Source of the DNA: Closterium sp. NIES-65
Taxonomy: Eukaryota; Streptophyta; Zygnematophyceae; Desmidiales; Closteriaceae
Direction of reading: 5' to 3'
NCBI GenBank assembly: GCA_948144175.1
Contig: CANXME010002559.1
Location: 186,001-250,000 of the forward strand
Length of the DNA stretch: 64,000 nt
A program made the translations under genes and the position numbers. Below, in pieces: positions 316 to 39,893 of this stretch. Position 1 is the first letter of the stretch; every line of letters starts with the position of its first letter. A model generated the notes under the pieces. That model was not told the DNA's origin, did no database searches, and saw only the letters and a program-made list of their open reading frames with translations.

Positions 316-3300
316 GAGGAGGAGCAGGATCGGTTACGGGCGATAAGCATGAGGGACGGAGCATTAGAAGGGTTGTCATTTAGAGGAGCGGCTTTGGAAG
401 CAGCAGAGGAGGAGAAGGAGAAACAACCCTTCCTCGACCTCACCGTGCTGGAGCACTTGCTGCAGGTGAGAGTGGTTTTGCAAGGTTTCTCCTCTTCTGA
501 TGCACTCAGACCAGCATGAGAGATGGGGCATTAGAAGGGTTGTTCTATAGAGGGGCAGCATCGAAGGCTGCGGAGCAGGAGAAGGAGAAGCAACCCTTCC
601 TCGACCTCACCGTGCTGGAGCACTTGCTGCAGGTGAGGCCTCTTCTCTTTTGATGCGCTCAGATCAGCATGCGGGATGGGGCAATGGAGTGCACAGCAGA
701 CACTTCCCATTGAGCGTCCTCCATTTTTTATTCATCCGACTTCTTACCCCCCTTCCCTGTGTTTCTGTTCTTCGACCGTTTTACGTCTTCCCTTCCTCCT
801 CTTCCCCCCCCACCCAGTTCTGCGTGCCATCCACTTAAGGAGCCTGTTTCAATGAGTCGTGTTTTGAGTCGACTCAAAACACGTGCCATGCACGGAAGAA
901 GCTTTCTTCAACCTCCGTTCCTCCAATTTTTTCCAAGAACCTCATAAGTCAATTCATTCGATTCCCTTTCTTTCTGTGCTTTTCCCCCTCTGCCCTCCCC
1001 TCCCAGTTCGAGGTGCCCTGCACAGCAGAAACCTACTTCAATCTCCTCTACTCCGATTCGTCTGATTTCGTCGTGGTTTACCGAGCCAAGCGCAAGGACA
1101 CAGAGCTGAAGGTGAGCCTTGGGGTTAAACGGAGTGACGCGTTGACCGCACATAAAAACCCTAAACCATGGTGTACCGAGCCAAGTGCAAGGACACGGAG
1201 CTGAAGGTGAGGCACGGGAACAACACAGCAGTAGGCTAGGCTTGGACCAAACAGCGAAAGGTGAGTCATGTGTGCCGTGCCAGATGCCGTAAGGCTCTGC
1301 CGTGGTATACCGAGCCTAAGGCCTCGCGGCATCTGACATTGAGGTGAAGGTGAGGCGCGGTCCAAACGAGGCGAAAGGTGAGGCAGGACTTTTTCAACTG
1401 TATGAAACGTTTCAGGAGCAAAGGATCCTAATAACCAACTAGTTGCTGAGATCCGTTTGCTCTTGAAGCATTTACAGGAAGTCCAATGTGCATCCAGCCA
1501 ATTGAGCAATGTTTCACTTCTTTTACGCAACCTATAACATCTTGCCAGCCGTTTCAGGCTGTGATTTCGCTTGCATTGCATGTTTTCTTCCTCTTATTCC
1601 ATTTGCTTCCTCTCATCCCACTTGCTTCCTTCAATTCTTGCCTTGCAGGTGGGCGAGTGGAAGGAAACAGAGCAGTACGGAGGCAAGATGAGGGAGGTAA
1701 GTTAAGGGACAAACTTCCTGGAAGATGGAAAGGGAGAAAAAAATCAGAAACAAACATGGTTGTTCAATCTGAGTATAATAGCAAATTGATCGTTTTCAGT
1801 TTCAGGAGATGAGAAGCGATAATTCAGGAAAGGTGATCAGAAAAGGTACGGGCTTTGTCATGTTTCACTCGACATATTTCTCACACTCCCGCTCTCAGTC
1901 TGGCTGTCAGTGTGACTGATAGCTACAGACAGGTAGCGACTCACTCTCAAATTCGTCTGAAAAGGGCTCTTCCATGTGCCCACCCTCCACTGCCATGGCC
2001 GATTGGTGGTGTATGGAGTGGCACGCAGGATTTCATGCTCTGCTTGCCACGCACCCACCCATCGTTCAGCCGCCCTGCCTGCACTCCACCCCCTCTCTCC
2101 CCCACTCCCCTCTCTCCACTGCCATGACCGATTGGTGGTGTATGGAGTGGCACACAGGATTTCATGCTCTGCTTGCCACACACCCACCCATCGTTTAGCC
2201 GCCCTGCCTGCACTGCACCCCCTCTCTCCCCCACTCCCCTTTCTCCACTGCCATGACCGATTGGTGGTGTATGGAGTGGCACGCGGGATTTCATGCTCTG
2301 CTTGCCACGCACCCACCCATCGTTCAGCTGCCCTGCCTGCACTGCACCCCCTCTCTCCCCCACTCCCCTTTCTCCACTGCCATGGCCGATTGGTGGTGTA
2401 TGGAGTGGCACGCAGGATTTCATGCTCTGCTTGCCACGCACCCACCCATCGTTCAGCCGCCATGCCTGCACACTCTCCCCCACTCCCCGCCTCCCCTGTG
2501 CTCCCACCCAGGTGACCTATCGCTCGCTCTGTGACTCCCCCATGTGCCCACCCTCCACTGCCATGACCGAGTGGCTGTGGCTGAGTGGCAGCACACGGCC
2601 TTTCCTAGCTGATCCACGTGACCTCTCTTCCCACCCCTACCCGCCCCCCTGTCTTCCCAGGTGACCTATCGCTCGCTCTGCGACTCCCCCATGTGCCCAC
2701 CCTCCACTGCCATGACTGAGTGGCAGCACACGGCCTTCTCTGCTCCAGACCACAAGCACCTGGTGCGTGCATGCTTTATATGTATCTCTGAGTGGAACAC
2801 AACACGCGTGTAGAAATTGAAGTGCTCCTGAGGCCACCCTCCTCCACGGCCATGACTGAGTGGCAGCACATGGCCTTCTCTGCTCCAGACCACAACCACC
2901 TGGTGCGTGAATGCTCCATCTTATTGAAATATACAAATTTACTGATGGAGATGTTATAACAACCCAGCACATGCCAAGCACATCTTGTGCTGTGTGTTGC
3001 AGTCTGATTTCTTTGACTGACTGAAACAGTTTCTCGCGTTGCTTGCATGTCATTGTTCGGACTGTAACAACTCCCCTTAGTCCTGGTGATCTTCAATGAA
3101 ACCATAGAAGTATGAACCTTATTCTTGCATCCATGAAGCCCCTCTCATCAGCTGCTGAGATGATGTGATGATGTGTGTGCTCCTTTTATAGCATCTCTCA
3201 TCTATGCTGTGTTGCCTGTATCTCTCATCTCTCACTTCTCCCATCTTCCCTCCATCGTTTCCCACCAGCTGCTCGAGCTAATGAACCAAGCGCATGACAT

Positions 3301-5988: not shown

Positions 5989-8900
5989 ATGCCGACGCCG
6001 TACGCGCGAGAGCTGGCGTGTGGAATCGTGAAGGACCACTTCGGGGACCAAGTGGAGGTGCGTGCGGGTGTTACCTGGGGGAGGTGCGCCCGGGTGCTAC
6101 CTGGGAGAGGTGCATTTAAGTGTGTTGTGTTTTATGGGTGAGACCCATCTAAGGTGTTACCTGGGAGAGGTGCGCCCGGGTGCTACCTGGGAGAGGTGCA
6201 TTTAAGTGTGTTGTGTTTTATGGGTGAGACCCATCTAAGGTGTTACCTGGGAGAGGTGCGTCCAGGTGTTATCAGGACCATTTCATGAAGGGCCACTTTG
6301 GTGGTGGAAGTGCGTGTGAGTGTTTTTGGGGGAGGCGAATCCAGGTTTATCTGGGGGAGGGGAGAGGGCATCCAGGTGTTATCCAGGTGGCATCCAGGAC
6401 CACTTCTGGAACCAGGAGGAGGTGCGAGCGTGCGAGTGTTGCTCGGTGGGCACTCGCTCGGTAGATTCCTGCCCGGTGGACAGGGGAATCTAGGCTGTTC
6501 CTCCTTTCAGTTCCCCATTCCTCCTCCCTTCGATTCCCCACCCTTCCTTTCCACCCTCCTCCACCCCATGCAGGCGGTATGTCGCACACTGCTGGAGAAA
6601 GAACAGCTCGGCCTGTCCCTTCACGGCCCTCCTGTTTATTCCTTATGTCTTCTACCCTACCCCCTTCCCCCACTCCCCCACACCAGACGGTATGCCGCAC
6701 GCTGCTAGAGAAGGGACAGCTGGGCCTGTCTCTCCAGGACCTCGCTCGCTTCACCGCCCTCCCACTAATGCAACCTTTTTTCCTCCCCCTACTCCCTATC
6801 CCTCCTCCTACCCCCTCCTATCAGACAGTATGCCGCACGCTATTGGAGAAGGGGCAGCTCGGCCTGTCCCTGCAGGACCTCACTCGTTTCACCGCCCTGC
6901 CCCCCCCTTCGCTCCGCTCTGCTCTCCTGGTGCTAGTACAGCACAACTGCGCGCAGGCCTTTCGGCCACAGACTGAAGGTGAGCCAGGCTGCCAGGGGTG
7001 AGGGTTGTGGGTATACCCTCTCAGAGCTCTCCCTCCTCCCTCAATTTGAGTCGACTCAAAACCAGGGGTGAGGGTTGTGGGTTTACCGTCTCAGAGCTCT
7101 CTCTCCTCCCTCAGTTTGAGTCGACGTAAAACCAGGGGTGAGGGTTGTGGGTTTACCGTCTCATAGCTCTCTCTCCTCCCTCAAATTTGAGTCGACTCAA
7201 AACCAGGGGTGAGGGTTGTGGGTTTACCGTCTCATAGCTCTCTCTCCTCCCTCAAATTTGAGTCGACTCAAAACCAGGGGTGAGGGTTGTGGGTTTACCG
7301 TCTCAGAGCTCTCTCTCCTCCCTCAGTTTGAGTCGACGTAAAACCAGGGGTGAGGGTTGTGGGTTTACCGTCTCATAGCTCTCTCTCCTCCCTCAAATTT
7401 GAGTCGACTCAAAACCAGGGGTGAGGGTTGTGGGTTTACCGTCTCATAGCTCTCTCTCCTCCCTCAGTTTGAGTCGACATAAAACCAGGGGTGAGGGTTG
7501 TGGGTTTACCGTCTCATAGCTCTCTCTCCTCCCTCAAATTTGAGTCGACTCAAAACCAGGGGTGAGGGTTGTGGGTTTACCGTCTCATAGCTCTCTCTCC
7601 TCCCTCAGTTTGAGTCGACGTAAAACCAGGGGTGAGGGTTGTGGGTTTACCGTCTCATAGCTCTCTCTCCTCCCTCAGTTTGAGTCGACGTAAAACCAGG
7701 GGTGAGGGTTGTGGGTTTACCGTCTCATAGCTCTCTCTCCTCCCTCAAATTTGAGTCGACTCAAAACCAGGGGTGAGGGTTGTGGGTTTACCGTCTCATA
7801 GCTCTCTCTCCTCCCTCAAATTTGAGTCGACTCAAAACCAGGGGTGAGGGTTGTGGGTTTACCGTCTCAGAGCTCTCTCTCCTCCCTCAGTTTGAGTCGA
7901 CGTAAAACCAGGGGTGAGGGTTGTGGGTTTACCGTCTCATAGCTCTCTCTCCTCCCTCAAATTTGAGTCGACTCAAAACCAGGGGTGAGGGTTGTGGGTT
8001 TACCGTCTCAGAGCTCTCTCTCCTCCCTCAGTTTGAGTCGACGTAAAACCAGGGGTGAGGGTTGTGGGTTTACCGTCTCATAGCTCTCTCTCCTCCCTCA
8101 AATTTGAGTCGAATCAAAACCAGGGGTGAGGGTTGTGGGTTTACCGTCTCAGAGCTCTCTCTCCTCCCTCAGTTTGAGTCGACGTAAAACCAGGGGTGAG
8201 GGTTGTGGGTTTACCGTCTCATAGCTCTCTCTCCTCCCTCAAATTTGAGTCGACTCAAAACCAGGGGTGAGGGTTGTGGGTTTACTGTCTCAGAGCTCTC
8301 TCTCCTCCCTCAGTTTGAGTCGACGTAAAACCAGGGGTGAGGGTTGTGGGTTTACCGTCTCATAGCTCTCTCTCCTCCCTCAGTTTGAGTCGACGTAAAA
8401 CCAGGGGTGAGGGTTGTGGGTTTACCGTCTCATAGCTCTCTCTCCTCCCTCAAATTTGAGTCGACTCAAAACCAGGGGTGAGGGTTGTGGGTTTACCGTC
8501 TCATAGCTCTCTCTCCTCCCTCAGTTTGAGTCGACGTAAAACCAGGGGTGAGGGTTGTGGGTTTACCGTCTCATAGCTCTCTCTCCTCCCTCAAATTTGA
8601 GTCGACTCAAAACCAGGGGTGAGGGTTGTGGGTTTACCGTCTCATAGCTCTCTCTCCTCCCTCAAATTTGAGTCGACTCAAAACCAGGGGTGAGGGTTGT
8701 GGGTTTACCGTCTCAGAGCTCTCTCTCCTCCCTCAGTTTGAGTCGACGTAAAACCAGGGGTGAGGGTTGTGGGTTTACCGTCTCATAGCTCTCTCTCCTC
8801 CCTCAAATTTGAGTCGACTCAAAACCAGGGGTGAGGGTTGTGGGTTTACCGTCTCAGAGCTCTCTCTCCTCCCTCAGTTTGAGTCGACGTAAAACCAGGG

Positions 8901-11900
8901 GTGAGGGTTGTGGGTTTACCGTCTCATAGCTCTCTCTCCTCCCTCAAATTTGAGTCGACTCAAAACCAGGGGTGAGGGTTGTGGGTTTACCGTCTCAGAG
9001 CTCTCTCTCCTCCCTCAGTTTGAGTCGACGTAAAACCAGGGGTGAGGGTTGTGGGTTTACCGTCTCATAGCTCTCTCTCCTCCCTCAAATTTGAGTCGAC
9101 TCAAAACCAGGGGTGAGGGTTGTGGGTTTACCGTCTCATAGCTCTCTCTCCTCCCTCAGTTTGAGTCGACGTAAAACCAGGGGTGAGGGTTGTGGGTTTA
9201 CCGTCTCATAGCTCTCTCTCCTCCCTCAGTTTGAGTCGACGTAAAACCAGGGGTGAGGGTTGTGGGTTTACCGTCTCATAGCTCTCTCTCCTCCCTCAAA
9301 TTTGAGTCGACTCAAAACCAGGGGTGAGGGTTGTGGGTTTACCGTCTCATAGCTCTCTCTCCTCCCTCAAATTTGAGTCGACTCAAAACCAGGGGTGAGG
9401 GTTGTGGGTTTACCGTCTCAGAGCTCTCTCTCCTCCCTCAGTTTGAGTCGACGTAAAACCAGGGGTGAGGGTTGTGGGTTTACCGTCTCATAGCTCTCTC
9501 TCCTCCCTCAAATTTGAGTCGACTCAAAACCAGGGGTGAGGGTTGTGGGTTTACCGTCTCAGAGCTCTCTCTCCTCCCTCAGTTTGAGTCGACGTAAAAC
9601 CAGGGGTGAGGGTTGTGGGTTTACCGTCTCAGAGCTCTCCCTCCTCCCTCAGGGTTCAGGGTGTTGGGTTTCCTACCTCCCCCTCCCTCCCCCTTCTTTC
9701 CGCTCCGCTCTCCTGGTGCTCGTACAGCACAACTGCGTGCAGGCATTTCGACCGTAGGCAGACTGAAGGTGGATTATTCAGGGTTTAAGGTTAAGGCTGT
9801 GACTTGACTTGACTTGACCCTCTCCCTCCTCCCTCAGGGTTCAGGATGTTGGGTTTCCTTTCACCCCCTCCCTCCCCGTTCGTTCGGCTCTGCTCTCACA
9901 CAGGCCTTCCGGCCTTTTGGCCCGTACCCAGGCCAACTGGTCTCTTATCCTGCACCCCACACTCTTGAGAACTCCCAATAGTGCTGCACAGCACAACTGC
10001 ACTGCACTGCACTGCACACAGGCCTTTTGGCCCGTACGCAGGCCAACCGGACTACTTTTGAGGCACCTCAAAAGTTGGCGCCTCAAAAGTAGGCGCCTCA
10101 AAAGTGAACTGCACAGTGCACACAGGCCTTTCGGCCCGCCTGCACTGCACCCACCCCACCACACTCTACATCACTCTACTTTTGAGTCGACTCAAAAGTC
10201 AACGCAGGCGAACCGGCTTCTTGGCCTGCACCCACCCCACCTATATTGGAGTGACTTTTGAGAATTCTCAAAAGTCACCCCACCACACTCTACATCGCTC
10301 TACAGGACTCCATTCTGCCTCGCCTCCCCTGTGCGTTGATTTAACTCTTCACACCCTCTTCAACCACACTCCCTCCTTTTCCTCTCATCCTGCCCAACCC
10401 CCATTCCCTTCCAGACTCCGGTCTTCTCGCCCGCACGCCCACGCTCTACATCGCTCATCAGGACTCCATCCTGCCTCGCCTTCTCTGCGCAGACTGACTC
10501 TCCACACCCCCCTTAATCTTAATCCACGGTCCGCCACCATCTCCTACTTCCCCTGCTCACCCCATTCCCTTCCAGACTCTGGCCTTCTCGCCCGCACGCC
10601 CACGCTCTACATCGCTCATCAGGACCCCATCCTGCCTCGCCTCCCCTTTGGAACGATTCCATTCTCCTGCTTCCCCCCTTGCTCTTTTCAACCCCTCCTT
10701 CATAGAGACACCAGTCCCCTGGCCCGCACGCCCACGCTCTACAGGACCCCATCCTGCTTCACTTAAAAGCCCCCTCTGCCTGCCCTTCCCCGCTTCTTCC
10801 CCACCCACGCCCTCCCCAGGACACCAGACCTCTTGCCCGCACGTCAACCCTCTACATTGCGCTTCAGGACTTCATCCTGCCCCGCCTGCGCGAACCACCA
10901 AGCTAACCTTTCACACCCACTCCAACCACTCCAAACCCCTGCTTCTTTCCCCCCATAGACACGGGTCCTCTGGCCCGCATGCCCACACTCTACGTCGCTC
11001 TGCAGGACTTCATCCTGCCTCGCCTGCGGTGCTTTGATCTAACTTTTTACACCCCTTCTTATCCTTCCCAACCCCTTCTGCTCCCCTGCCAGACACGGGT
11101 CCCCTGGCCCGCACACCAACCCTATACATCTCTCTGCAGGACTCCATCCTGCCTCGCCTGCGCTTCCCCAAGTTCATGGCGCAGACAAACGAACTGCTGG
11201 GAGACGAGGTGGGTGTGTGGAATGCGGTGGAGTAGGGTGGAGTGGGGTGAAGTGGTCGAAGACGCGGGTTAGGCGTGTCACTTCATGGTTCTGCCTCGCC
11301 TGCGCTTCCCCAAGTTCATGGCTCAGACGAACGAGCTGCTGGGAGACGAAGTGGGTGGGTGGTTGGTTGATGGGTGGAAGGGTCGGTTGGTGGATGAGTG
11401 GATGGGCGGGTGGGGCAGAGGCAGTGATTGACGCTCTTTGAGACGTCTCAAAACTCTTTTGAAGCATGGTTGCCTTGCCTGCCCTCGGTTTCCCACAGTG
11501 GGGCGTTCCACCATCTCGGGCAGCGATCGCCCCACAGTTCCCTTGATGCCCCACCCCCACGCGCCCCCCTTTCTTCCCGCACCCCCCATCTAAGCACTAT
11601 GTTCAGGCAGAAGCAGTGGTGGAGGCTCTTCTGGGGGACCACAGCCACCTGTCCCGCCCCCAGCTGGTGAAGCAGCCGAAGTTCCCTCAATGTGTCATCC
11701 TCCCTTTTCTTCCTGCACCCCCGCTCCCCCTCCCAACACACCTCCCGTCAGGCAAAGGTAAAGTGGTGGAGGCTCTTCTGGAGCACGGCCGTCTGTTCCT
11801 GCACCAGCTCGTGCAGCGATAACACCGCACTTCCCTTGATGCCCCATTTACCACCCACCCTTTCCCCTTCCCCCTCCAACACACCCCTCGTCAGGCAGAG

Positions 11901-23639: not shown

Positions 23640-25320
23640 TGGCTAACAGTACCAGTTCTGTAATTTTCTCCTTTGATTATGTTTGCCCGCCACCATTCTC
23701 CAGTACACCACACCACAACCGGTACCATAGATCTGGTTTCAGCATGCTCCTATGAGAAGCATGCTCCTGTCACAAAGCATGCTCCATTGCTCCTCTCATT
23801 CGATCCATCCCTAGTGTTTTACCTCTCCTGAGTAGATTGCATGAACTTGGCAAACACAAGTGAGACTGACAATGCAGCACAGCAGTGTCAAGACATAGTG
23901 GATTAATCTGGTCACCACTTGAAAGAAAACGGTTCCAAATACTCGACCTACGAGCACACAAAAGAAAGAAAACAACAAGTAAAAAATAACAAACAAAGAA
24001 CACACACCAACACACACGACAACCTAATGACATAATGACAGTTTATCCCTCTCAAGAGCAGGTATGTCGACGAATGAAAGACAGCAGTCTTCCGACAAAG
24101 CAATTTTTCCCCGCACAAGAAACGGGAAGCATTGTATTGCACAAAATTTCACCACCGCCCCATGTCTCCACCATGGGTGCTTGCTTTGCCCCCCAAATCC
24201 CCACCAATGTAGACAATCCATGGCTCGAATTGAAAACCATCTCGGGATCGAAATGAGGTGACTTTTGAGTCGACTCAAAGATCCCCATCAATGTAGATAA
24301 TCCATGGCTCGAAAACCATCCCGGGATCAAAATGGCCCTGCCCTGCACTGCTTCTGCGCCAGCCAATGAGGAGACCAGTAAGAGGCGGAACCATCTGCGA
24401 CCCGTGGCAGTTTGCTCGCAATTGCCACCACCCAAAACGTCTCCAGCCAATGAAGAAACAACAGCAACCGCCTGCGGTTCCTGCTTCTGCTTTAACCAAA
24501 ACCACCAACATTCCTGCAGCTGGAAGAAGGTTCAACCACTGAAACTGATGCACCCGCGAGAAACTTCTGCCACCGAAATTTCTGAAGCTGCAACTGGTAC
24601 TGAAAGCCCTGTAGCTGCAGCTGCACCTGCCTAATAAAACTGCTGCCATGCCACCAACGCCACTGCATCTCAGACAGCTGCTGCTGATTTCAAAAAGTTT
24701 CCGAAAAAAAACACTACCTATCTTCACAACCCCTGAGATCAAACTCTTCCCAATCAAACCACACCCACTGCCACTGCAACCGTAGCCGCTCCAAATGCAG
24801 CCATAGAATCAAAGCTCCAGATTCTATGATTCTGACCCTGCTGCCAAAAAAAACTGCTCTGGAGCCGATCATTACTGTCATATGCAGACCACACCATGAC
24901 TTTTCTGCAGACCGATCACCGAATGCTGGCGCTATGACTGGAACACTGAAAGCTGGCGCTACCCTTAGCAGCGGCAGCTGCTGCTGGTGCTGCTGCTGGT
25001 GGTTCCGATGCTGCCAATTCCGGCTTCGTGCGCAAATGAATGGACGAATAAGGCTCAGAGTCAAAGCCAGCCAACCGCTCCATGGTCACGTAGATGAATG
25101 TGATTAACCGTCCCATCCACGTCAGCTTAGTCAGAAGAGTTGATTAAAAAGAGTTGATTATCCCAACTGTCCCTCCCTCTCTCCAGCATACCCGTAAAAA
25201 GTGGGCAGCTGTATCCGTCCTGTATCCGTCCCTCCTCAGAACGATCGAAAGACTTGAAAAAAACAAACAGGACAAAAACAAAATGTGCGAAGACAATCAG
25301 CAGGAAGGCCAGAGGGTGTG
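23640..25320. other. Convergent intergenic region between RPC3 and DCD-TRF4
   Basis: No gene recognised. It should hold both 3' UTRs. It contains one palindrome (24263-24280, TCGA centre) set between two similar 70-bp segments (about 24190-24255 and 24281-24335), and several CTG/CAG-rich stretches. Short open frames on both strands have no recognisable domain. Confidence 0.5.
24263..24280. repeat. Palindrome between two copies of a ~70-bp segment
   Basis: Core ctttgagtcgactcaaag. The segment atccccaccaatgtagac...catggctcgaa...aaccatc is present on both sides with substitutions and one small indel. Confidence 0.85.
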
Positions 25321-27391: not shown

Positions 27392-27440
<49 letters not shown>

Positions 27441-30400
27441 GGCGTCATCGCCGCCCGAAGCAGCAGCTGCGGCAGTGGTAACACTATCTGAAGCAGTCAC
27501 ATTTTCCGCTGAAGCAGCAGCAGCAGCATCAGCATCATTATCAGCAGCAGCAGCATCACCACTGGCTTGCTCAACCTTGGAGTCTGCAGACTTGGATCCT
27601 GGTGACTTGGTTGCTGCCTCAGCAGGAGCAGTAGTAGCAGGAGGGGGGGACATGCCACATGCGACAGGAGCTCTCTGCAGGGATGGGAAGCAAAGGAGAG
27701 AACAGACACACAGAAGTGTTGAGCACCAGACTTCAGCAGCATCAGCACCACCAGCGGCATTGCCATTAGGTTGCTCAACCTTAGAATCTGCAAACTTGGA
27801 TCCTGGTGACTTGGCTGCTGCCTCAGCAGGAGCAGCAGCAGGAGGGTGAAACATGCCACATGCGACAGGGGCTCTCTGGAGGGATAAAGGAGGAGGCAGG
27901 ACCACACCAGGGGTGGTGAGGATACAACAGGGGTTGGGAACTCACCACAGCGCACAAAAAGGAGAACATATCTCCGTAGAAAACAGACACCATAGTCAAG
28001 AAACCCGAATTGTGGGTTGCTCAAAGAATGTACATCGAATCGAGTTGAACGACGCCAGGGAGCAGGGTAGAAGGAGGCTCAGGAAACACACATTGAGGTA
28101 AACGGCGAGCATCATAGTCAGAGAGAAGGATCATTCGAGGATGCTCGTCGAGGAACAACGACAGTCATAGTCCTTCGAATACAAAGGACCATTCGAAGGA
28201 TTCAAAGGCGGCCAAAGTGCGTACCTCCAGGTAAAAGACGAGCATCATGGTGAGGGAGAAGGACCCGAGCCCGCCAGTGTAGACGTCCTTGAGACCCCGG
28301 TGGTGCAGGTAGGACTTCATCAGCAGCACCTGGAGAGTGGAAAGAGGACAAACGGGAGGGAGAAAGGAGTGGAAAGCAGGCAGGGGGGTGGAAATTGGCA
28401 CGCAAAGGAATCACAAGGCAGGCCAGAGTGCAGACATCCTTGATGCTGGCCAGCTTTTGAGAAACTTCAAAATCGGCTGAATGCCGTTGCACAGGGAGGA
28501 GCTGAGCCCGCCAGTGTAGACGTTTTTGAGTCCTCGGTGGTGCAGGTAGGACAGGGTAAATGGAATCAACACAAGGGGGGCTGGGCTGGGCGGGGCTGGG
28601 CGGGATGGATGAATGAATGCATTCACACGTGTTTTGAGTCGGCTCAGAACAAGGAGATCAACCTGTAGACGACCTTGAGGCCTTGTTGGTGTGGCAGGAC
28701 TAGAACAGTAACCTGTCATTCCAACCCCTCCAAGAAAGGCAAACTAGGGGGGCGAGAGCGGGCATTTTCTTGAGGCGTTCAATCACGAGCTCCCTGGCGG
28801 CCGACCCGTTGTGATGTCCATCTGAACCACTCATTCCTCGTGCACTCACTCTCACCAGGGAAACCAGCCCAGCCCATTCACTCACCAGGGGGGCGAGAGC
28901 CGGCATTTTCCTGAGGCGTTCAATCACGAGCTCTCTGGCGACCGACCCGTTGCGAGCGGCAGCTGCCTCGTCCAGCTTCCCCGCCAGCACCCTGCTGGCC
29001 GCATCCCCCACCTCCATGCCCTTGGGGCGCGTCAGGGAGAACGTACTGTCCATCCGAACCCCCATTACCTTACCTGTCCCCGCCCCGCCCTGCCCCGCCC
29101 GTGGCCCTGGCCCCCTTGAAGCAAGACAAACTAGACTCACCAGGGGGGCGAGGGCGGGCATTTTCTTGAGGCGTTCAATCACGAGCTCTCTGGCGGCCGA
29201 CCCGTTGTGAGCCGCAGCAGCCTCGTCCAGCTTCCCCGCCAGCACCCTGCTGGCCGCATCCCCCACCTCCATGCCCTTGGGGCGCGACAGGGAGAACGTA
29301 ATGTCCATCCGAACCCCCCTTACCTGTGAGACCTCCTACCCCCGTCCCCAGCCCGGCCCCAGCCCCGACCCCTGGCCCCGGCCAAGGCCCCGGCCCGGTC
29401 CCCGGGCCCGGCCCCCTTCAAGCAAGGCAGACTACACTCACCAGGGGGGCGAGGGCGGGCATCTTCTTGAGCCGCTCAATAACCAGCTCCCTGGCCGCTG
29501 ATCCGTTGTGAGCCGCAGCAGCCTCGTCCAGCTTCCCCGCCAGCACCCTGCTGGCAGCATCAGACACCTCCATGGCCTTGGGCCGCGACAGGGAGAACGT
29601 TATGTCCATCCGAACCACTCCCTGCACGCTCGGCCCCACCAGGTCCGACGCCGAAGCAGACGGCTTCAGCGCCGTGGCTGCCGAACCTGCTGCTGCCGCC
29701 GCTGTGACGTTTGCCTCTCCTGCTTCGCTCTCTCCCACCACCGACGCGCCACCGCTCCCCTCTGTGGAACCAGAAGAGCCTGAAGACCTTTGAGACGTCT
29801 CAAAAGAACCTGAAGACCCAGCGCCCCGCTCAGAAGTCGACGGGGCCTTCTCCTTCTCTTCCTCTGCTCCTTCGGCGGAAGCGGGCGGCAGCGGGCGGCA
29901 CTTGAGTTTGATGACGGGGATGCGGGCGGTTTCAATGGTGTGCAGGCTCTCGCACCACGGCTGCTTCTTCAGTGCAGCTGCCAGCTGCCTGATGAGCGGT
30001 GCACTGATGCGCGCACCTGGGAAGCGAGGGAGGAGGGGGAGAGGGGGGAGATGAGGGAGAGGAGGGAAGGAGAAGAAAGTGGGCTTGATGTTTAAGAAGC
30101 ACCACCACCAGCGGCAGCACCAGAAGCAGCAGCAGCACCAGCAGCAGCAGCAGGAGGATTCGATGGTGTGCAGGCTCTCGCACCACGGCTGCTTCTTCAG
30201 TGCTGCCGCCAGCTGCCAGATGAGCAAAGCGCTGATGCGCGCACCTGGGAAGGAGCGCGAAGAGGGAGATGGGGGAGAGGAGGGAAAGAGAAGAAGATGG
30301 GCTTGATGTTTAAGAAGCACCACCAGCAGCAGCAGCAGCACCAGAAGCAGCAGCACCGCCAGCAGCGGCAGCACCAGAAGCAGCAGCACCACCAGCAGCA

Positions 30401-33400
30401 GCAGGCGGGTTCAATGGTGTGCGTGAGAGCATTTAAGAGACTGTTATACCCACGTGATGCAGTTCCTGTTGCAAGAACCTTATACGTCCACCCTAGGGCC
30501 TGATGCACGCACGCACCGGACAGGCTGGGGCGCTCTGGTAGGTTAGCGGTTGGTGGAGGTGACTCTTGAGTCAACTCAACTTTCAAGGCGCCTCAAAAAT
30601 CAACTAATATATCGGTCCATTCACCTCTTGCACTTGGCAGGCTCATGCACGCACGCACCTGACAGGCCGGCGAGCCAGCAATTGGGACGAGTGCCCTTTG
30701 AGTCGACTCAAAAGTCGGTACATTCACCTCGTACATTCACTTGCAAGCACTTGACAGGCTCATGCACGCACACACCTGACAGGGTCGCGAGCTCCGGTAG
30801 GTCAACAATTGGAATGCGTGTTTTTCTGACTCCGGTGCCCTTTGAGTCAAGTCAGTGCATTCACCTCGACTCATAAGTCAACTCAAAAGTCAAACACCTA
30901 AAGCCTCATGAATGCACACACCTGACAGGGTCGCGAGCTCTGGTAGGTCAGCGGGTGGAGGAGGTGCGTTAATCACTGCCACGTCAACATCGCTGTGAGC
31001 GAGGGCAAGGCCAGTGGCGAATGAACCAAACACCTGAGGGAAGAAGTGGGACGGGGGATAGAGAGGAAGTGGGTTGGGTGAAGGGGGGGGGGGTGCGTTA
31101 ATCACTGCCATGTCAACGTCGCTGTGAGCGAGGGCAAGGCCAGTGGCAAATGAACCAAACACCTGAAAGAATGAGAGTGAATGGGAGGGCGGATAGAGAA
31201 GTAGGGAGCAGGAGTGGGAGTGGAAGGGGTTTTTGGAGGGGTGGGGAAGAGGGAGGAGAAGGGAGAAAGGGGTTGCATTGATCACTGGCACATCAACATT
31301 GCTGTGAGCGAGGGCAAGCCCATGGCGAAGGAGCCAAACACCCGAGGGAATGGGCAAAACCGGGAGAGCAACTAGAGAGGAGGGAAACTGGAATGGAACT
31401 GGAGGATGTTTTTTGAGGGGTTTGGGGGGTTGGGGTGCACGAATCACTGTCACATCAACATCAATGTGAGCACACAGCAAGGCCACCGCCATAAGTCACA
31501 ATAAGCGTCTCGGCCAATATTCAGCACGACTACTCACCTCAACGTCAGCTCCTTCCCAAAGCGACCTGAGACCGTGCGCCTGACACACGCCACTGCCTGC
31601 TCCGCGCTGACCCGCGCCTCCCTGGGCGGCCTTTCCAAAGCACAGGCATAATAACCCTAGTCTCCTAGACAGCAAGCAAAGCCCTAAACTCACCTCCACA
31701 TCAGCTCCCTCCCACAGCGATCGCACAGTCCGCCTGACACACGCCACAGCCTGCTCCGCGCTGACCCTTAGACAGACCAGGGCACACACAAACAGCTCCC
31801 TGAGGGTGAAGCCTGGAACTCACGTCCACATCGGCTCCCTCCCACAGGGATCGCACAGTCCGCCTCACACACGCCACAGCCTGCTTCGCACTGACCCTTA
31901 GAAACAGACCAGGGCACACACAAACAGCTCGCTAGAGGGTAAAGCATGGAACTCACCTCCACATCAGCTCCCTCCCAGAGGGATCTAACAGTGCGCCTCA
32001 CACACGCCACAGCCTGCTCCGCACTGACAGACCGCACACACAAGCAGCCCCCTTGTGGGTAAAGCTTGGAGCTCACCTCCACATCGGCTCCTTCCCACAG
32101 TGACCGCACTGTCCGTCTCACACACGCCACAGCCTGCTCTGCGCTGACCCGCGCCTCCCTGGGCGGCCGCACCTCCTCTGCATACGCCAGCACCTCCCCA
32201 TGCAGCGCCCACCACACACCAGAACTCAATTCCACACGCAATCAGGCACAGCAACTCACCTCAACATCGGCTCCTTCCCACAGCGATCTGACCGTCCTCC
32301 TCACACACGCCACTGCCTGCTCCGCGCTGACCCGCGCCTCCCTGGGCGGCCGCACCTCCTCTGCATACGCCAGCACCTCCCCATGCAGCGCCGCCGCGTT
32401 TTGCAGCAGCGCAGCTGGTGGCACCGGGAACGCCGGGAACCCTGCGATCGGCACCGCTAGCATGCGCGGGTGCAGGTGCGGGAGCGGGTGCGGGTGGGGG
32501 TGTGGATGGGCGCGGGCGTGTGCGTGAGGGTTGGTGTGCGCGTGGAGGGGGGGTTGGCCTGCCGCGTGAGTGAGTGGGGTGAAGGGGAGAGGGTGGTAGA
32601 GAGAGGAGGGAGGAGCGCCTCCAGGGAGGACCCCTGCAGCTCCTGTATGGAAAGGGGGGCCTGGAATAACGGATCCTGCTGCTGCAGCTGCTGCTGCTCC
32701 TGCTGCTGCTGGAATAACGCCTCGACCTTGCCCTGCTGCTGCAGGCACAGCAGCACCAGCAGCACCAGCCACAGCAGCAGCGGAACCAACGCCACTCAAA
32801 GAAGCTGCTGCAGCCGCCGCCGCAGTAGCAGCTGCAGAAGCACCAGCAGCAACGACGCCACCTCCAGCCTGCCTCACCCCCCCTGCTGCTCCTGCCCCTG
32901 TTGCTGCTGCCCCAGCAGCAGCTGCCACTCCGCCGTGCCGATACCCGCCCCCTCTGCCCCCCACAGCGCCAGCAGCAGCGCTGCTTCCCCCAGGCGCAGC
33001 CCCCCCCTGGCGTTGCTGGTACCTCATAGGTCTCCCGTGCTGATTCCCCTGCTGGTGCTGGTGCTGATGCTGGTGGTGCTGGTGGTGCTGGTGGTGCGGT
33101 TGGTGCAGCTGCTGCTGCTGCCGTTGCATGTGCAGAATCGGCTGCCCCGCGCCTGCCGCCGCCGCAGCAGCAGCGGAAGCAGCGTGGGTAGGAGCTGAGG
33201 CGGTGTGCTGATGTGGAGAGGCCGCAGATGACGCACCTGATGCAGATGCACCAGTGGAAGCTCCAGGGGATACGCCAGTAGAACCGCTACTCTTCCCCCC
33301 CTGCTGCTGCTGCTGGTGCTGGTGATGATGGTGGTGGTTGTGATGCTGATTCTGCCGCTGTGGCTGAGTCGAACCCCTAGCAGAAACTTTAGACCCCGCT

Positions 33401-35756
33401 CCTCCTCCTCCCCCTCCACCACCACTGCTCTTCTTAGCACCACCCTCACTCTCACCCCCCTGGGTCTTCCCCTTCGGCCCCCCCGTCCCACCCTCCCCGG
33501 GTTTCTCACACCCTCCTTCCTTCTCCACCCCCTCTTCCTTATCCCCTGTCTTGCCACTCTCAACCTTCCTCCCGTCCTTCCCCTTCTCCCCAGCACCAGC
33601 CTGCTCTCCAGGCTTCCCTGCCTGCTTTCCCCCCCTACCCTGCTGCCCCTGCTGCTGTCTCTGCCCGTCCTGCTTCCCACTGGCGCCATGAGACTGCGAC
33701 TGCGACCCCTGGTGCTTCTGGCTTCTCCCTTCAGCAGACCCAGCGCCACCGCCTGCCTGGCCTGTGCTTCCCTGCCCCGCCCCGCTGTCGCCCAGACGCT
33801 TCAGTATCGCCGCGTCGTTCCCCTGCCACGCCGGGCGCCGGGACCTCGCCGGCTGTGGTGCCGCTGCCAGCGGTTTCCCATCCGCGGCTGTAGCAGCAGC
33901 AGCTGCGTCGCTCGCGGCTGTAGCAGCGCCAGCGCCGGCAGAGGCACCTGCTGCCTGCCCGTCCTCCCCACCAGAGCGTGCCGCTACAGCTGTGGTAGAA
34001 GCAGCACTGCCTGCAGCACCACCCGTTGCACCAGCAGCAGCCCCCACACCAGCAATAGTTGCACCCCCTGCGGTCCTATCCGCCCCTTTGCCCGCCCCCT
34101 TCTTTCCCCCGCCCTTACCTTCCTTGCCCCCTCCTGCAGCCGGCGCCCCCCTCTTCACCCACACACCCGCGGATTTCTCCTCCCCACTCGCCCTCCGCCC
34201 CCCCCTTCCGCCCGCCCCCGCAGCAGCTCCCGCCGCCCCCCCTGCTCCGCCCCTCCCTTGCGCCTTCTCCTTGGGTCCGCTAGACACTTTAATCCACCCC
34301 TCCTCCTCCTCGTCACCAGCCTTCTCCCCGCTCGCACTCGGGGCTTTAGCCGCTGGTTTACCCTCTTTTGGAGGGCTACTTGAGCGGGTTTCCCCTGGCG
34401 CTGGTACTGTTGCTCCTGCCACAGAAGCCGGTACGTCAGTGCTAGCAGAAGCGCTAGCTGAGTCCGAGCGGGGTTCTTCCTTGCTCGCCTCCGCCACCCC
34501 TGCTGCGCCTGCTCCGCCTGCCACTCCCCCCGCCCCTCCGCCAGTCTCTCCCGCGCCTCCCCCTGAGGGCACTCCCGCTGCGCCCTCCGCGCCTTCAGGA
34601 CTTCCCCCAGCAGCCGCGCCTTCCTCCGCCTTCCCCAGTAAAACCGCAGCAAATGACACATTGGCGCTACGCACCGACCACACACTCCCCCCACCTCCCG
34701 CCCCACCTGCGCCCCCCTCCCCCGCAGCCTTCCCCGGACTCCCGCCTCTCCCCGCCCTCTCCGCGTCTGCCTCCCCCGCTTTTTCCCCCTCCGCCCCTTG
34801 CTCGGAAGAGGAGGACTCTTCGCTCCGCCTATCCTCCGTATGGAGAACCCCGTTACCGTTACACTCCGCCTCGTGCTCCCCCCCGCCCGCGGACGACCGC
34901 TCCTCGCTGCTGCTTCCCCCCGTGGTGCTCAAATCGGGGGAAACCAGTCCGCTCCCGCTACTTCCGCTTCCAGACGACTTGCTGCAGCCGTCCGCCTCCC
35001 CCTGCCGCCACCGCCCTGCGGAATCCGCGCGGCCTCCGCTGTCCTTTCCGCCAGCTGCGGGAGGCGCGGGCGGCGGCGGCGGAACTGCTGCTGCCCCTGC
35101 TGCGCCGCCGCCACCCCCTCGCCCTGCGCCCACCCATCCTGCTCCCCCTCCGCCCCCCCCAGCATGCCCCACGCCATTGCCCCCTTGGTTCTGCGCGGAG
35201 CGCCAATGCGCCCCCTGATGCGGGTGCCCGTGCTTCTTCCCGCGGAAATGCCCCCCACCGCCGCCAGAATAACCGCCGCGCATACCCCTGCCCTTGGGTT
35301 TGACCTTCTCCCACTGCCCGCCCTCCTCGTCCCCCTGCTGCTTCTTCTCCCCCTTGCCTTCTTCCCCTTCCAGCAACCCAAAGACTCTCAGCAAGTTGTT
35401 GGCCTGCACGAGGAACCAAGAGGGAAAAAGGCACGTGTGAAAGGTTGGGTTTTGAGACGTTTCAAAACTCCACAAACCAAAGACCCGCAGCAAGTTGTTG
35501 GCCTGCACGAAGAACCAAGAGGGAAAAAGGCACGTGTGAAGGTTGGGTTTTGAGACGTTTCAAAGCTCAACAAACCAAAGACTCTCAGCAAGTTGTTGGC
35601 CTGCACGAGGAACCAAGAGGGAAGAGGGAAACGCAAAAAAAAAAAAAAAGTTTGTGTTGTTGTATTTCCCGGCCCCTTCAGAAGGAAGGGGGAGCGCTGC
35701 TGCTTTCCCCCGCCCTTGAGCTAGAACTTGTCTTACTGCCCGCCCTCCTCGTCCCC

Positions 35757-35787
<31 letters not shown>

Positions 35788-38700
35788 GGCTGCTGCTGCT
35801 GCTGCTGCTGCGGCTGCTGCTGCTGCTGCTGCTGCTGCGGCTGCTGCTGTTGCGGCTGCCTTTCACCTTTCCCCCAATCCAGCAGACCAGAAATCCGAAA
35901 AAGGATATTCGCCTGTAGGAGGAATGAAAATAAACCCTCCTAGACTTTTCATAAGGGCATCTTACCTTCGCGTTAAGAGACGCCTCAACTCCCCAGGCCA
36001 CGCTACCTCCAAGCCACCATGCCTTAACGCAATCACAAAGCAAACTTCAACCAGCAACCAAGCAAAAACGTTCTAGAAGCAATCATCCCTTGCCAGGAAG
36101 GGATGATCTTGCATTCACTCCTAAAAAAAAATTACCTCGAAACGTAGCTCGGAACGTTCCTCCGAAAGAAGGAGCGTTCTTTAGCATGAAAGAAGGTATC
36201 CGCTCTGGTGCATTGGTACAACTTCTTGCGTGTTGACTTATTAATCAGGATTTTTGCATTTACAATTCCCATAGATTGTACCTGATTTTTGCGTACGCCC
36301 CCCTCACAGAACGTGTCTCGTCACGAAAAAGCGTTCTAGCACGAGAGAAGAACATACCCGTCCTACTGCATTGGTACAGAGCCTTTTCAAGTTGACTCAA
36401 AAGGCATGTTCTTGCAGCCAACCCTCTAAAACGAAGTACCTCAAAGGGAGAGTAAGTACAGAATCCGTATCCCTACGAACGCATCTGTCCTACTGCAGTA
36501 GTACAGGTGTCAACTCAAAAGCTATAATCTTGCATTGCATGGGATCCACCCCTTTCAAAGAACGTGCATCAGGCGGAGACTGGGTATAGCCAGCAATGAT
36601 TTCGAACCGCACAAGGCTACTGTGTATTGTGCCTTGGCAAGGCATGCTCTTGCATTGCATCCATCCACACCCACGCCCTTCACAGAACGTGCATCAGGCG
36701 GAGACTGGCTATAACCAGCAAGCAATGTTTTCGAACCACACAAGGGTGACTTGGCAAGGCTCGCAGCAACACCTGGTGACCTCTAGTCTAGATGGGGCGG
36801 CGTCTGACTGTGCGAGGCGGCGTCTGACTGTGCTAACGAATGACCTCGTATTTTGAGCCATGAACACAAGTCACGTGGTGAGGGCATCTCTAGATGAAGC
36901 GGCGACTGACTGTCTGTGCCTGGAAATGACCTGGTGAACTGAGATAAAAAGAGGTGACTTTTGAGTCGACTCAAAAGTCACCTCGCAACGTGGTGAGGGT
37001 ATCCCTAGATGAAGCGACGACAGACTGTGCCTGGAAATGACCTGGTGACTTAAGATAAAAAGAGAGCGTAACTCGGCGAGGGGGAGCACGAGTCGTACCG
37101 TGGTGAGGGCAGCTCTGAAGGAGGTGGTGACTGGCTATGCGTTCGAATGGCCAGGTTATTCAAATCATTACCAAACGTAACTCGGCCGATGGGAGCTAGA
37201 GTCAAAGCTTGGGTCGTGCAGTGATACAGGACCGAAGGAACTTGACTTGGTGATTGCACCTCTAGGTGAGGTAGTGAGTACTTCTAAAACCCTGCAGACC
37301 TCGAAAAAAAGGAGATCTTGAGCCGAAGATTGGACCCGTTCGAGTAGTGCAAGCGCTGGTAACTGTAGCTCCAGGTGAGCTGGTTCGTTCAGCTAACTTT
37401 GACCCAACAGCACCTCGGCAAGAGAAAGTTCGAGACGTGACTTGGGCCCGTCATAGTGATACAGGCAAAAACCAACGGAATTGAACTTGGGTATCGCACA
37501 TCTAAGTGGGTTGGTGAAGTGTGACCCTACACACCTCGAAAAGAGAGAGCTCGCGTCCAAGTCTGGCCTCGTCTGATTGGTACAGGCACCGGCGGAACTT
37601 GAGTTGTTGGATGGACTCCTAAATGACCAACGCACCTCATCAAGTAAGAGCGATCGAGTCAATACTTGGATCCGTCGCAATGGCGTAGGCACCAGTGATG
37701 AGTAAAGCTCTATGCCTTGGTTCGTTTGACTTGCTAGAACATCGGTTCGTACCTCGGTCAGGAAGAGCTCGAGTCAATACTTGGATCCGTCGCGGTGGTA
37801 TGGTGGCATTGATGAGTAAAGCTCTATACTTGGTTCGTTCTACTTGCTAGAACCTCGGTTCGCACCTCGGTCAGGGAGAGCTCGAGGCGGAACTTGGGCC
37901 CGTCATCGCGATACAGGAAAACGGCAAAACTGATCTTGGTCATTTCACCTCTGAATGAATAATTTCCTACACCTTTTTTCCATTCTTTTTCACAGAAAAG
38001 GAAATGGTGTAAGCAGCGACCGTATAACCCAGCGTACCTCGGTCAAAGAGAGCTCGAGGCGGAACTTGGGCCCGTCGTAGTGATACAGGAACCGACGGAA
38101 CTTGGTCTCGTCCAGCGGTGACCGTTGCTCCCGCAGACGAACCCTAACCTGCATGACGCACAAAACGGAAGGTGGAAGACCAAGGGGATAGCCCGCTTGC
38201 CAATGCTCCATGAGAAAAGAAAGTGACAGTACAGTTTCAAGAACAGCAACACAAATTCACGCTAAGAAAATCATTTACCAAACAAACAAATACAAAAAAG
38301 GGAGGGGGGGGGGGGGGGGGGGGGGGGGAAGGGGGGGGGAAGGGGGGGGGAAGGTGGGGGGGATTCGGGGGGTGTTGGGGGGGTGGAGGGGTGAGGGGAA
38401 AGGGGAGAAGGAGAAGGAGGATTCAACAGTCTGAAGCACAAGGTGAACCTTACTTGTGATGGAAATTTCGATAACGACGGGTCTAGGTTCAGGCCACCTT
38501 CGCTTGATGCCTATAATGGTTTGGGTGACGAAACGGCAAGAAGAGGAAGGAGTAGCGAAACAAGTACACAGAAATCAAGCGTGAGGGGACGGAGTTAGAG
38601 AGAGAAAGGGAGGCAATCTGATGCTTCGCCGGTTCTCAGAACGCTAGCTATGAGCTATTCTGCACCTTAGCGGTCTCTACGTCACAACCATTTACAGTAC

Positions 38701-39893
38701 AGCAGGAAAAGTACACACTTCCATTGATCAAATGCAGCGTTCTTCTGTTCTAAACAACTCTTTGGCCACCAAGGGATTCTGATAACAAACCTCGAAGACG
38801 CCGTGTAAATGGTGAGTGGTGTAGTTGTAGAGAAACAGCGGCATTCCCGGTTGAATCCCCCGAACCGACTCGTGATACTTCTGCGGTAAGCCTGTAAGCA
38901 AGACACATAGGAGATCGAAAAACAGCGTGCGATAATGAATCCTCGTATCACAAAACTGCACTTGTTTCGCCTCGAACAGGATCGAACGGAGATCTAGAAA
39001 CGAAGGTCAACATGGGAATGGCACATATAGTTTATCAGTCACTGACTGAATACGAGCCCCTCGACAGTTTGAAAAAGACACGGAAGAAAAAAACTACAAC
39101 GAGACTTTCCCACTTGAGTAAAAAAAAAACAAAAAACAAAACCGGAAGATGCGCATTAACTTCAAGAACGTCGTTGAAACTGCGATGACGTGAGCACTGT
39201 GAACGACGTAATTACGACGCCGACTCAGAAGTCACTTCGTCAAAGCTGCGATAAAGCGAGCAACGCGAACGATACGACGGGAACCAATGCTGAAAAGGGC
39301 ATCCAATGTTCGACAGCGATCGAGGGGTAAACGAACATCTATTCCTCTTATCAGGTGCCTTAGTTGCCATCAAAAGCTTTTGGCTGTGAACGATTTGCCT
39401 GACGCCGATCTACGGCTCGATAGGCATATCGCGTATCAATCACCGAGAGACGCAAACCTGTCGATCGCCGACAGTTGTAAACCTGTCAATCGCCACGTCA
39501 CGGCCTTCATCGCTTCGTTGTTGCACACGAACACGTAAACTGCCAGCAGCGTTGAAGCCACCCCAAAAGCATCACCAAGGAGAAGAGATACCCGTCGATC
39601 GGCAAGAAACGGGCTGACTTTTGAGTCGACTCAAAAGTCAGCTCGAATACGTCACCCGTCAGCTGCGTTGAAGCCACCCCAAAAGCATCACCAAGGAGAA
39701 GAGATACCCGTCGATCGGCAAGAAACGGCTCACCGAAAAGCTCGCGTTTAATGTCATCCTCCATGGTTTCATTGTTGCACACGAATATATAACCCGCAAG
39801 AGGGTCCTCCAACGGGGGAACGTCCGTCGACGGAACGGCAGACTTCCGATCGTGAAACCCCTCCTGCTGCCGGTACGTCTTTAAGTTGGCCAT
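25321..39893 (-). CDS. DCD domain fused to TRF4/5-type non-canonical poly(A) polymerase
   Basis: Eleven minus-strand exons join in phase to 1868 aa: 39893-39734, 38891-38791, 38510-38454, 38148-38038, 35403-32260, 31033-30922, 30016-29442, 28329-28225, 27674-27120, 26708-26577 and 25875-25321 (stop TAA). Residues 32-158 are a DCD domain (LAGYIFVCNNETM, RELFGLPQKYHESV, GMPLFLYNYTTHHLHGVFE, RLELSLTEANNLLRVFGLL). Residues 160-1160 are Gly/Ala/Ser/Gln/His-rich low complexity. From about 1165 the protein is a TRF4-like nucleotidyltransferase: FGSFATG with D1206 and D1208 (SDVDVAV), third Asp D1366 (MDITF), SYLHHRGLKDVYTGG, NLGVLLIGFLHLFG and WIDDPLRPGANIGSGSFA. TRF4/5 enzymes add short tails that mark nuclear RNAs for exosome decay. 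DCD is a plant domain linked to stress and cell death. Long Ser/Glu- and Ala-rich inserts interrupt the catalytic part. The fusion rests on one exon (35403-32260) holding both the DCD end and the start of the transferase. Confidence 0.85.
26100..26330. repeat. Foldback in intron between the last two DCD-TRF4 exons
   Basis: The segment from acaaaatcgacgcggaggaa to attttcgacatcaactgcc is followed, after about 65 bp, by its diverged reverse complement (ggcaattgatgtcgaaaat to gttgattttgtc). Arms are about 78 bp. Confidence 0.78.
26395..26490 (-). repeat. Partial copy of DCD-TRF4 exon 10
   Basis: Reads LWIDDPLRPEANICSGLFAMWHVQ with a donor on the minus strand. It differs from exon 26708-26577 at several residues. 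A further partial copy (LFGQEIDRSRLGLILR joined to a GVFWRDPCMPPAA-like stretch) lies at about 26800-26920. Confidence 0.75.
26541..26567. repeat. Poly-C run of about 26 bases
   Basis: Homopolymer next to the exon 10 donor, part of the C-rich intron; its length may be unreliable in the assembly. Confidence 0.8.
27690..27890 (-). repeat. Partial copy of DCD-TRF4 exon 9 start
   Basis: Minus-strand copy of RAPVACGMxxPPA...EAAxKSPGSKxADSKVEQ with its own acceptor at about 27885. It lies upstream of the complete exon 27674-27120 and runs into pyrimidine-rich intron. Confidence 0.78.
28480..28700 (-). repeat. Partial copies of DCD-TRF4 exon 8
   Basis: SYLHHRGLKNVYTGGL at about 28560-28490 and a shorter remnant at 28700-28655. 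An imperfect palindrome (gttttgagtcggctcagaac, 28630-28649) lies between them. Confidence 0.75.
28740..29165 (-). repeat. Copies of DCD-TRF4 exon 7 3' half
   Basis: MDxTFSLxRPKGMEVGDAAS and the AARELVIERL(K/R)KMPALAPL stretch with donor are repeated at about 29310-29140, 29060-28885 and 28810-28755, all downstream of complete exon 30016-29442. The extra copies retain the third catalytic Asp (MDITF and MDSTF). Confidence 0.82.
29789..29804. repeat. Palindrome inside a coding exon
   Basis: tttgagacgtctcaaa sits within exon 7 of the DCD-TRF4 gene, in the Ser/Glu-rich insert (reading SFETSQ). It is flanked by near-identical 14-bp repeats agagcctgaagacc and agaacctgaagacc, which look like a target-site duplication or a small tandem duplication. 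The reading frame is kept. Confidence 0.85.
30070..30420 (-). repeat. Copies of DCD-TRF4 exon 7 5' part with CTG/CAG tracts
   Basis: ARISALLIWQLAAALKKQPWCESLHTIE at about 30245-30160 is a near copy of the start of exon 30016-29442, and a shorter HTIEP remnant lies at 30425-30405. Trinucleotide (CAG)n-type tracts follow each copy. Confidence 0.78.
30530..30900. repeat. Intron with several palindrome-family members
   Basis: ctcttgagtcaactcaac (about 30562), ccctttgagtcgactcaaaag (about 30698) and ctttgagtcaagtcag (about 30840) lie among repeated copies of the segment acgcacctgacaggc...gctc, which derives from the 3' end of exon 31033-30922. Confidence 0.75.
31090..31490 (-). repeat. Copies of the catalytic DxD exon
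   Basis: Three further copies of the VFGSFATGLALAHSDVDVAV stretch lie upstream of exon 31033-30922: about 31165-31095 (SDVDMAV), 31345-31270 (SNVDVPV, first Asp replaced by Asn, acceptor AG lost) and 31485-31435 (IDVDVTV). None has a recognisable donor, so normal splicing would favour the complete exon. Confidence 0.8.
31543..32215 (-). repeat. Five copies of the large exon's 3' end with donor
   Basis: RVSAEQAVACVRRTVRSLWEGADVE with a donor (gtgagc, gtgagt) recurs at about 32180-32075, 32025-31960, 31895-31825, 31770-31700 and 31625-31543, after the complete exon 35403-32260. The sequences differ by a few substitutions (e.g. SLWEGADVD, RSLWEGADVE). Confidence 0.83.
35440..35620. repeat. Tandem copies of the large exon's 5' boundary, each seam with a palindrome
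   Basis: Two extra copies of the first 20 bases or so of exon 35403-32260 (ANNLLRVFG) with acceptor and upstream intron. Each seam holds gttttgagacgtttcaaaac or gttttgagacgtttcaaagc, diverged ACGT-centred members of the palindrome family. Confidence 0.85.
35738..35912 (-). repeat. PolyQ-expanded copy of the large exon's start
   Basis: From an acceptor (cctacag) the minus strand reads ANILFRISGLLDWGKGERQPQ, then long Gln tracts broken by Pro, then EGDEEGGQ, mirroring ANNLLRVFGLLEG...QQGDEEGGQ of the used exon. A gtaag follows directly, so it could be spliced as an alternative exon; in-frame reading otherwise ends in a stop at that point. On the + strand it appears as (CTG)n. Confidence 0.7.
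36150..37945 (-). repeat. Array of decaying copies of the last DCD exon's 3' half
   Basis: About ten copies of the YHYDGPKFRLELSLTE-plus-donor segment, best at about 37945-37868 and 37495-37405 (LYHYDGPKSRLELSLAE), become progressively unrecognisable towards 36150. Each retains a gtacag/gatacagg...acctcg pattern. The complete exon is 38148-38038. Confidence 0.75.
36951..36984. repeat. 34-nt perfect palindrome between two ~85-bp copies
   Basis: gaggtgacttttgag plus TCGA-centre plus its complement. The sequence tggtgaggg(c/t)atctctagatgaagcg...ctggaaatgacctggtga...gataaaaagag is found directly on both sides (36870-36950 and 36990-37065). Confidence 0.9.
38303..38360. repeat. Poly-G run and G-rich low complexity
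   Basis: About 26 consecutive G followed by G-rich sequence in the intron before the last DCD exon; its length may be unreliable. Confidence 0.8.
39535..39735 (-). repeat. Palindrome seam at the first DCD exon
   Basis: The ~62-bp segment gttgaagccaccccaaaagc...tcggcaagaaacgg, just inside the donor of exon 39893-39734, occurs at about 39549-39612 and 39667-39728. Between them lies a 30-nt perfect palindrome at 39613-39642 (core TTTTGAGTCGACTCAAAA). Confidence 0.9.

Follow-up and report, generated by a model that had tools for sequence, protein, structure and literature searches.

The palindromes analysed here may well constitute a nuclear family of ultra-short insertions, each of which would arrive together with a duplication of the DNA at its target and would be formed by steps of nicking, fill-in and copying of a single arm; we give this reading a probability of about 0.45. 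The window, that is, the whole stretch of 64,000 nucleotides that was analysed, corresponds to C2261:186001-250000 in the one genome studied (874 Mb, 2400 contigs). The host was taken as Closterium because most of the 120 matches listed for a gypsy-type frame of the window (57946-60828) are Closterium proteins (NIES-53, -54, -67, -68 and Yama58-4). Closterium is a green alga near land plants. The overall base is a small sample from this genome, with three fresh insertion events.

Abundance and anatomy of the palindromes

Exact copies of the pattern TTTTGAG-NNNN-CTCAAAA occupy 30,327 sites genome-wide (about 35 per Mb) against 4 for the reversed control pattern; this excess runs counter to the refuting case named in the earlier note, a frequency no higher than expected from composition. 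The window is richer in exact sites than this genome average. Given the genome-wide excess over the control and the simulated expectations in the window (see below), an origin by chance was rejected. The centres were surveyed in the window plus 20 stretches of 10 kb, a sample that is no measure of site density since 18 of the 20 stretches were picked for holding listed sites. Among its 65 exact sites the centre is TCGA in 28, ACGT in 14, GCGC in 14, AATT in 3 and another sequence in 6, so that 59 carry one of four self-complementary 4-mers. Over about 280 kb, where alleles of some loci are included, TTTTGAG was counted 304 times on both strands against 31-46 for three similar 7-mers, and 218 of these 304 are followed by one of the four 4-mers; four other self-complementary 4-mers have 0 occurrences directly after TTTTGAG in the same DNA. 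When TTTTGAG...CTCAAAA pairs with spacers of 0-30 were collected there, the spacer was 4 in 79 of 96, some of the loci being alleles of each other.

The conserved part of each copy is the centre and the variable part the outer ends, some of which are truncated. The outer arm bases vary between loci and match within a copy (GAGGTGAC, GCTGAC, CATGC and CGTG with the TCGA centre), many different mirrored arm variants were seen, and ACGT-centred copies have arms of up to 26. The palindrome reaches at least 2 bases past the core on each side in 35 of the 59 sites with a self-complementary centre, some array copies among them, where chance would give 1/16; the earlier observation that changes in one arm tend to be mirrored in the other is thus borne out. 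The inserts are short, 47 of the 50 listed measuring 19-50 bp and 48 being below 55 nt (a list of seams and inserts in which some entries are copies from arrays or a pair of cores within a single insert). Folding the RNA of one copy gives a 15-bp stem with a 4-nt loop (z -8.66).

The 24-base pattern GACTTTTGAG-NNNN-CTCAAAAGTC was found neither in viral contigs nor in a bacterial and archaeal collection, two sets from which records near the window's genome were possibly excluded. A literature search at the level of titles and abstract openings returned no description of such a palindrome family, and the part of the Closterium genome-size paper that was searched (PMC10407611) contains neither 'palindrom' nor 'inverted repeat'.

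Outside an array at 6992-9651, the window holds 12 perfect palindromes with arms of at least 8, all of this family, where about 1.0 is expected from simulation. The coordinates reported earlier for the palindromes hold on recheck. The former figure of more than 15 copies does not stand for exact 18-mers, of which there are 8 (7 with a self-complementary centre). When up to 3 mismatches are allowed, 25 sites lie outside the array, where simulated sequence yields 0.0. The array itself had been missed. The features are as follows, D denoting a copy of the flanking segment:

858-883, 10178-10199, 10251-10278, 11437-11452, 12359-12374, 14605-14624: perfect palindromes with arms of at least 8
18281-18302, 24264-24279, 29789-29804, 30697-30712, 36951-36984, 39613-39642: further perfect palindromes with arms of at least 8
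858..883: 26-bp perfect palindrome, TCGA centre, without abutting repeat
6992..9651: array of 70/71-bp units with palindromes nearly exact or diverged
10056..10278: cluster of a multi-unit GCGC-type insert (10056-10105), a TCGA copy (10178-10199) and an AATT copy (10251-10278)
12293..12484: diverged GCGC, AATT and GCGC-like copies within tandem units
13793..14050: D 13793-13897, insert 13898-13941 with ACGT centre, D 13942-14050
14565..14665: D, insert 14598-14627 with TCGA centre, D; copies 79% alike, gapped
18245..18335: D 18245-18278, insert 18279-18301 (TGAC, palindrome, G), D 18302-18335
24197..24334: D 24197-24255, insert 24256-24280, D 24281-24334
30564..30713: diverged and TCGA copies within tandem units
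35369..35623: ACGT-type palindromes (35450-35467, 35548-35565) separating copies of D
36873..37064: D 36873-36953, insert 36954-36987, D 36988-37064
39528..39728: D 39528-39612, insert 39613-39643 (palindrome of 30 bp and one further base), D 39644-39728

A single mismatch interrupts the 46-bp palindrome at 13898-13943, and the 34-bp perfect palindrome at 36951-36984 includes the final three bases of the first D. In a minus-strand open frame the palindrome 35450-35467 reads FETSQ; palindromes may supply new peptides to exons.

None of the 25 sites falls within the block 40951-61185 (Poisson P(0) 4.5e-6), in agreement with the earlier statement that the retrotransposons are free of them, and this block may simply be young, because it is absent from the second haplotype described below. 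The missing block spans about 20 kb and contains a frame that matches phage-type integrase (41370-42473) beside a reverse-transcriptase-like frame, a pair which we take to be DIRS-like, as well as copia-like and gypsy-like frames.

Seams, direct repeats and empty sites

A closer look at the flanks placed a copy of a segment on either side of the seams at 13912, 14606, 18283, 24263, 35450, 36959 and 39619. The length formerly given for this segment, 35-95 bp, had to be corrected to 10 to about 105 bp. No abutting repeat was found at sites 862 and 11436, and site 30696 is embedded in tandem units and lacks a tight seam. With up to 20 extra bases allowed, direct repeats abut isolated exact sites in 18 of 28 cases and diverged sites in 8 of 43; at random places the count is 372 of 4000, so the association that had been proposed for the window is also seen elsewhere. 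The corresponding figures are 20/28, 14/43 and 519/4000 with 40 extra bases and 10/28, 4/43 and 242/4000 with 10; an initial version of the test had given 18/34 against 470/6000. The enrichment is about 7-fold and not absolute, because random places abut repeats in 8-9% of cases in this repeat-rich DNA, and single cases of a palindrome between two D copies prove little, since tandem duplication is common in this genome. It is the enrichment, together with its fall in diverged copies, that counts as evidence. In the 32 of 89 tested sites that passed, both alleles of some loci being counted, D measures 16-105 bp.

Over the 50 listed seams no clear target motif for homing appeared, and homing to a short target motif was dropped on these grounds. 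Junction microhomology is weak (19/30 against 13.1 expected, p 0.024), being derived from a hand-typed list of 24 events with two outliers dropped and with one GCGC-type event set against the TCGA-type arm consensus. A permutation p of 0.0 over 32 junctions was rejected, because the maximal alignment of D itself produces matches and makes that null unsuitable.

The contig C1828 represents the second haplotype of the window from 5291 to 40950. Seven of the nine blocks that align show 0.61% substitutions, the two excluded blocks about 1.8%. This part of the window has 24 family sites, of which 22 recur in order on C1828 and two are absent; one more locus is found on C1828 only. Because 22 of 24 sites recur in order on a second contig and the similarity of the D pairs varies from identity down to about 80%, an assembly artefact is unlikely. 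Thus, 25 loci were compared and three proved to be on one haplotype only:

22120..22180: 23-bp D 22120-22142, insert ACTTTTGAGTCGACT 22143-22157, D 22158-22180; on C1828 the insert is absent and D occurs once
29779..29818: 10-bp D 29779-29788, insert TTTGAGACGTCTCAAAAGAA 29789-29808 (20 nt), D 29809-29818; C1828 has a single D
C1828:163906-163990 (L037:3906-3990): 85-nt insertion with a D of 71 bp; the empty site is window 11398..11468

At all three the other haplotype carries a single D without palindrome, which is the empty site that the earlier note had described for insertion and duplication in one event; since the empty alleles carry one D and no palindrome (3/3), insertion and duplication do look like one event. 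The insertion at 29779-29818 adds ten residues in frame, and on C1828 the frame is open without it. Pfam matches this frame, below the family cut-off, with a poly(A) polymerase domain, and a protein search with it gave one distant match. The 71-bp D of the C1828 insertion contains the older ACGT palindrome 11437-11452, which was thereby itself duplicated.

The D pairs of the polymorphic loci differ at 2 of 104 positions against 30 of 467 in seven shared ones (p 0.096), a hint only that the former are young. These figures bear on the converse scenario, in which the palindrome between two D copies would be ancestral everywhere and the empty alleles would have arisen by recombination between the copies. 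Deletion between direct repeats would yield the same product; nevertheless, the young appearance of the polymorphic pairs (not significant), a D of only 10 bp at one locus and the window's single D at 11398-11468, which equals the first C1828 copy at both differing positions, all point the other way, and we regard such a loss as very improbable.

Haplotype indels of at least 10 bp, other than unit changes of simple or 17-bp repeats, number 9. The palindrome is present in 3 of them, and the other 6 include one plain duplication and four indels in the poorly aligned, repeat-rich region 29092-29392. Two further allelic locus pairs, and a third pair overlapping one of them, gave no palindrome polymorphism. 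The array 6992-9651 has about 38 units in the window and a far shorter counterpart on C1828, roughly 7 by alignment, so that the two haplotypes differ greatly in array length. On C1828 a plain 34-bp tandem duplication without palindrome is located at 20280.

Duplication seams left by break repair are empty or hold varied filler. Host break repair alone could account for the duplications if fill-in produced them and the seam captured or copied an already common palindrome, without any causal role for the latter. Fill-in at staggered breaks is a known origin of small tandem duplications, in which a two-nick break leads to the doubling of one segment of less than about 100 bp (PMC8355091), and the polymorphic loci resemble them in gaining an extra copy of one segment in one step (3/3, the polarity being assumed). 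Tandem repeats are also common in the window, and the plain 34-bp duplication differs between haplotypes as well. In contrast, the Closterium seams hold the same palindrome family, a fixed seam sequence that the consulted part of that source does not describe; random capture should yield varied fillers, yet all 12 perfect window palindromes outside the array that have arms of at least 8 belong to this family, which also appears in 3 of the 9 haplotype indels of at least 10 bp (repeat-unit changes excluded). Host repair acting alone is thus considered unlikely.

A possible route of formation

The mirrored arms, the four self-complementary centres and the arm repeats that resume after the centre speak in favour of copying, with two equal arms being joined. 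At L033, L018:2018 and W10056, repeats of the arm in the same direction resume directly behind the central 4-mer. Copying at both ends is proposed because self-complementary 4-mers dominate the centre, the arms co-vary and arm repeats resume after the 4-mer. For a pure hairpin, self-complementarity of the loop would be unnecessary, though the RNA of one copy folds with that loop.

The nick, fill-in and arm-copy reading would run through four steps. A single D becomes D, palindrome and D in one event, as seen at three loci provided that the empty alleles are ancestral, with a D of 10, 23 and 71 bp at these loci and about 105 bp elsewhere. Two opposite-strand nicks, staggered by 10-105 bp, would be filled in from both sides to give D twice. 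Both 3' ends would then be extended by copying the same arm of a pre-existing family copy or of its transcript (...GGTGACTTTTGAG and 4 nt more), with a halt after the 4-nt centre. Finally, the equal tails would pair via their self-complementary 4-mer (TCGA, ACGT, GCGC or AATT) and be sealed. The expected product is a palindrome with a conserved centre and variable, truncated outer ends; repeated rounds could give rise to multi-unit inserts, and later unequal exchange could expand units of D and palindrome into arrays.

Several observations stand against the joining of two equal single-arm tails. The order + - + - of the inserts at L030:1346, L030:1512, L008:5821 and partly L014:2576 counts against it unless a whole palindrome was copied through. 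The almost missing right arm of the fresh 15-nt insert at 22143-22157 and the two similar, unequal arms of the C1828 insertion, which also has 12 unexplained bases before the second D, speak against it too. Also to be set against the nick, fill-in and arm-copy reading are the lack of a clear target motif over the listed seams, the slight junction microhomology and the 6 of 9 comparable haplotype indels that are free of the palindrome. The earlier reading as either a tiny insertion element or a hairpin- or template-switch-based duplication is supported by these data.

LINE and SINE retroposons, including those formed by twin priming, have variable target duplications and end on one side in a poly-A or similar tail. 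The fresh C1828 insertion begins on the left with a T10 run and shows an A10 run close to its right end, and a second locus carries TTTTTTTAGAATT ahead of the left arm only; these A and T runs, found beside AGAATT at both loci, would be compatible with an RNA template. A short RNA (5' end NNNN-CUCAAAA, NNNNCUCAAAA) would in that case be copied by reverse transcription starting at the two 3' ends of a staggered break (twin priming), the conserved centre being the 5' end of the RNA and the outer ends varying with priming. The variable duplications, the unequal but similar C1828 arms and the conserved centre with variable outer ends fit such retroposition. However, the runs beside AGAATT were seen at just these two loci, the other arms ending earlier; the inserts, unlike LINEs or SINEs, are mostly 19-50 bp and palindromic with no promoter or body recognised; no Rfam family matches at the gathering threshold within the window, and with the C1828 insert as query the non-self matches cover at most 49 bases. 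Retroposition is accordingly viewed as doubtful.

More tentatively than the nick, fill-in and arm-copy route itself, the palindromes might be assigned to a new class of selfish DNA without gene or fixed ends. Its whole information would reside in a single arm, about 10-25 nt long, whose last bases form a self-complementary 4-mer. It would spread when both ends of a staggered break copy the arm and join through the 4-mer, its copies being born as palindromes between target copies.

Relation to known elements and biological meaning

MITEs and other non-autonomous DNA transposons combine inverted repeats and high copy number with conserved ends and short target duplications of fixed length. The Closterium palindromes could be an element of this kind consisting almost entirely of inverted repeat, with a transposase that gives unusually long and variable target duplications, and they share the inverted repeats, the copy number and the insertion with target duplication. 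Unlike MITEs as generally defined, they have target duplications that are long and not fixed in length (10, 23 and 71 bp at the empty-site loci), and a conserved centre with variable ends is the reverse of what transposon ends show. No longer family member was found when the C1828 insert was used as query. We consider a MITE-like origin improbable. The Angel-type fold-back elements of fish are short near-perfect palindromes, longer than those of Closterium, and are not known to have long variable duplications.

Among known systems, the short palindromic repeats in the organelles of Volvox come closest. In Volvox carteri mitochondria and plastids these form families of 11-79 nt, often nested and thought to be selfish, with hairpin loops of 3-5 nt and few loop sequences; they multiply in the organelles by a mechanism that was left open, and nuclear copies were suggested to be inert (PMC2670323). 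The folded Closterium copy is alike in its hairpin with a 4-nt loop. In contrast to Volvox, the Closterium family is nuclear, lies at seams between two D copies and has motifs other than those quoted for the alga, and its setting is an 874-Mb genome with retrotransposon frames and two haplotypes. In a word search of the Volvox paper, neither 'duplicat' nor 'direct repeat' turned up.

Each of the three known kinds, MITEs, SINEs or LINEs and plain filler, disagrees with the Closterium palindromes in a feature that was tested, the first two being judged by their general definitions. If the palindrome were a passive filler, the family would be a variant of break-repair duplication.

If the proposed reading is true, a sequence of about 20 bases without coding reaches tens of thousands of copies in a nucleus, and a spreading sequence would be linked to the origin of small tandem duplications, of minisatellites and of in-frame protein changes. 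Because some copies are confined to one haplotype, the mechanism is open to direct testing in the living alga.
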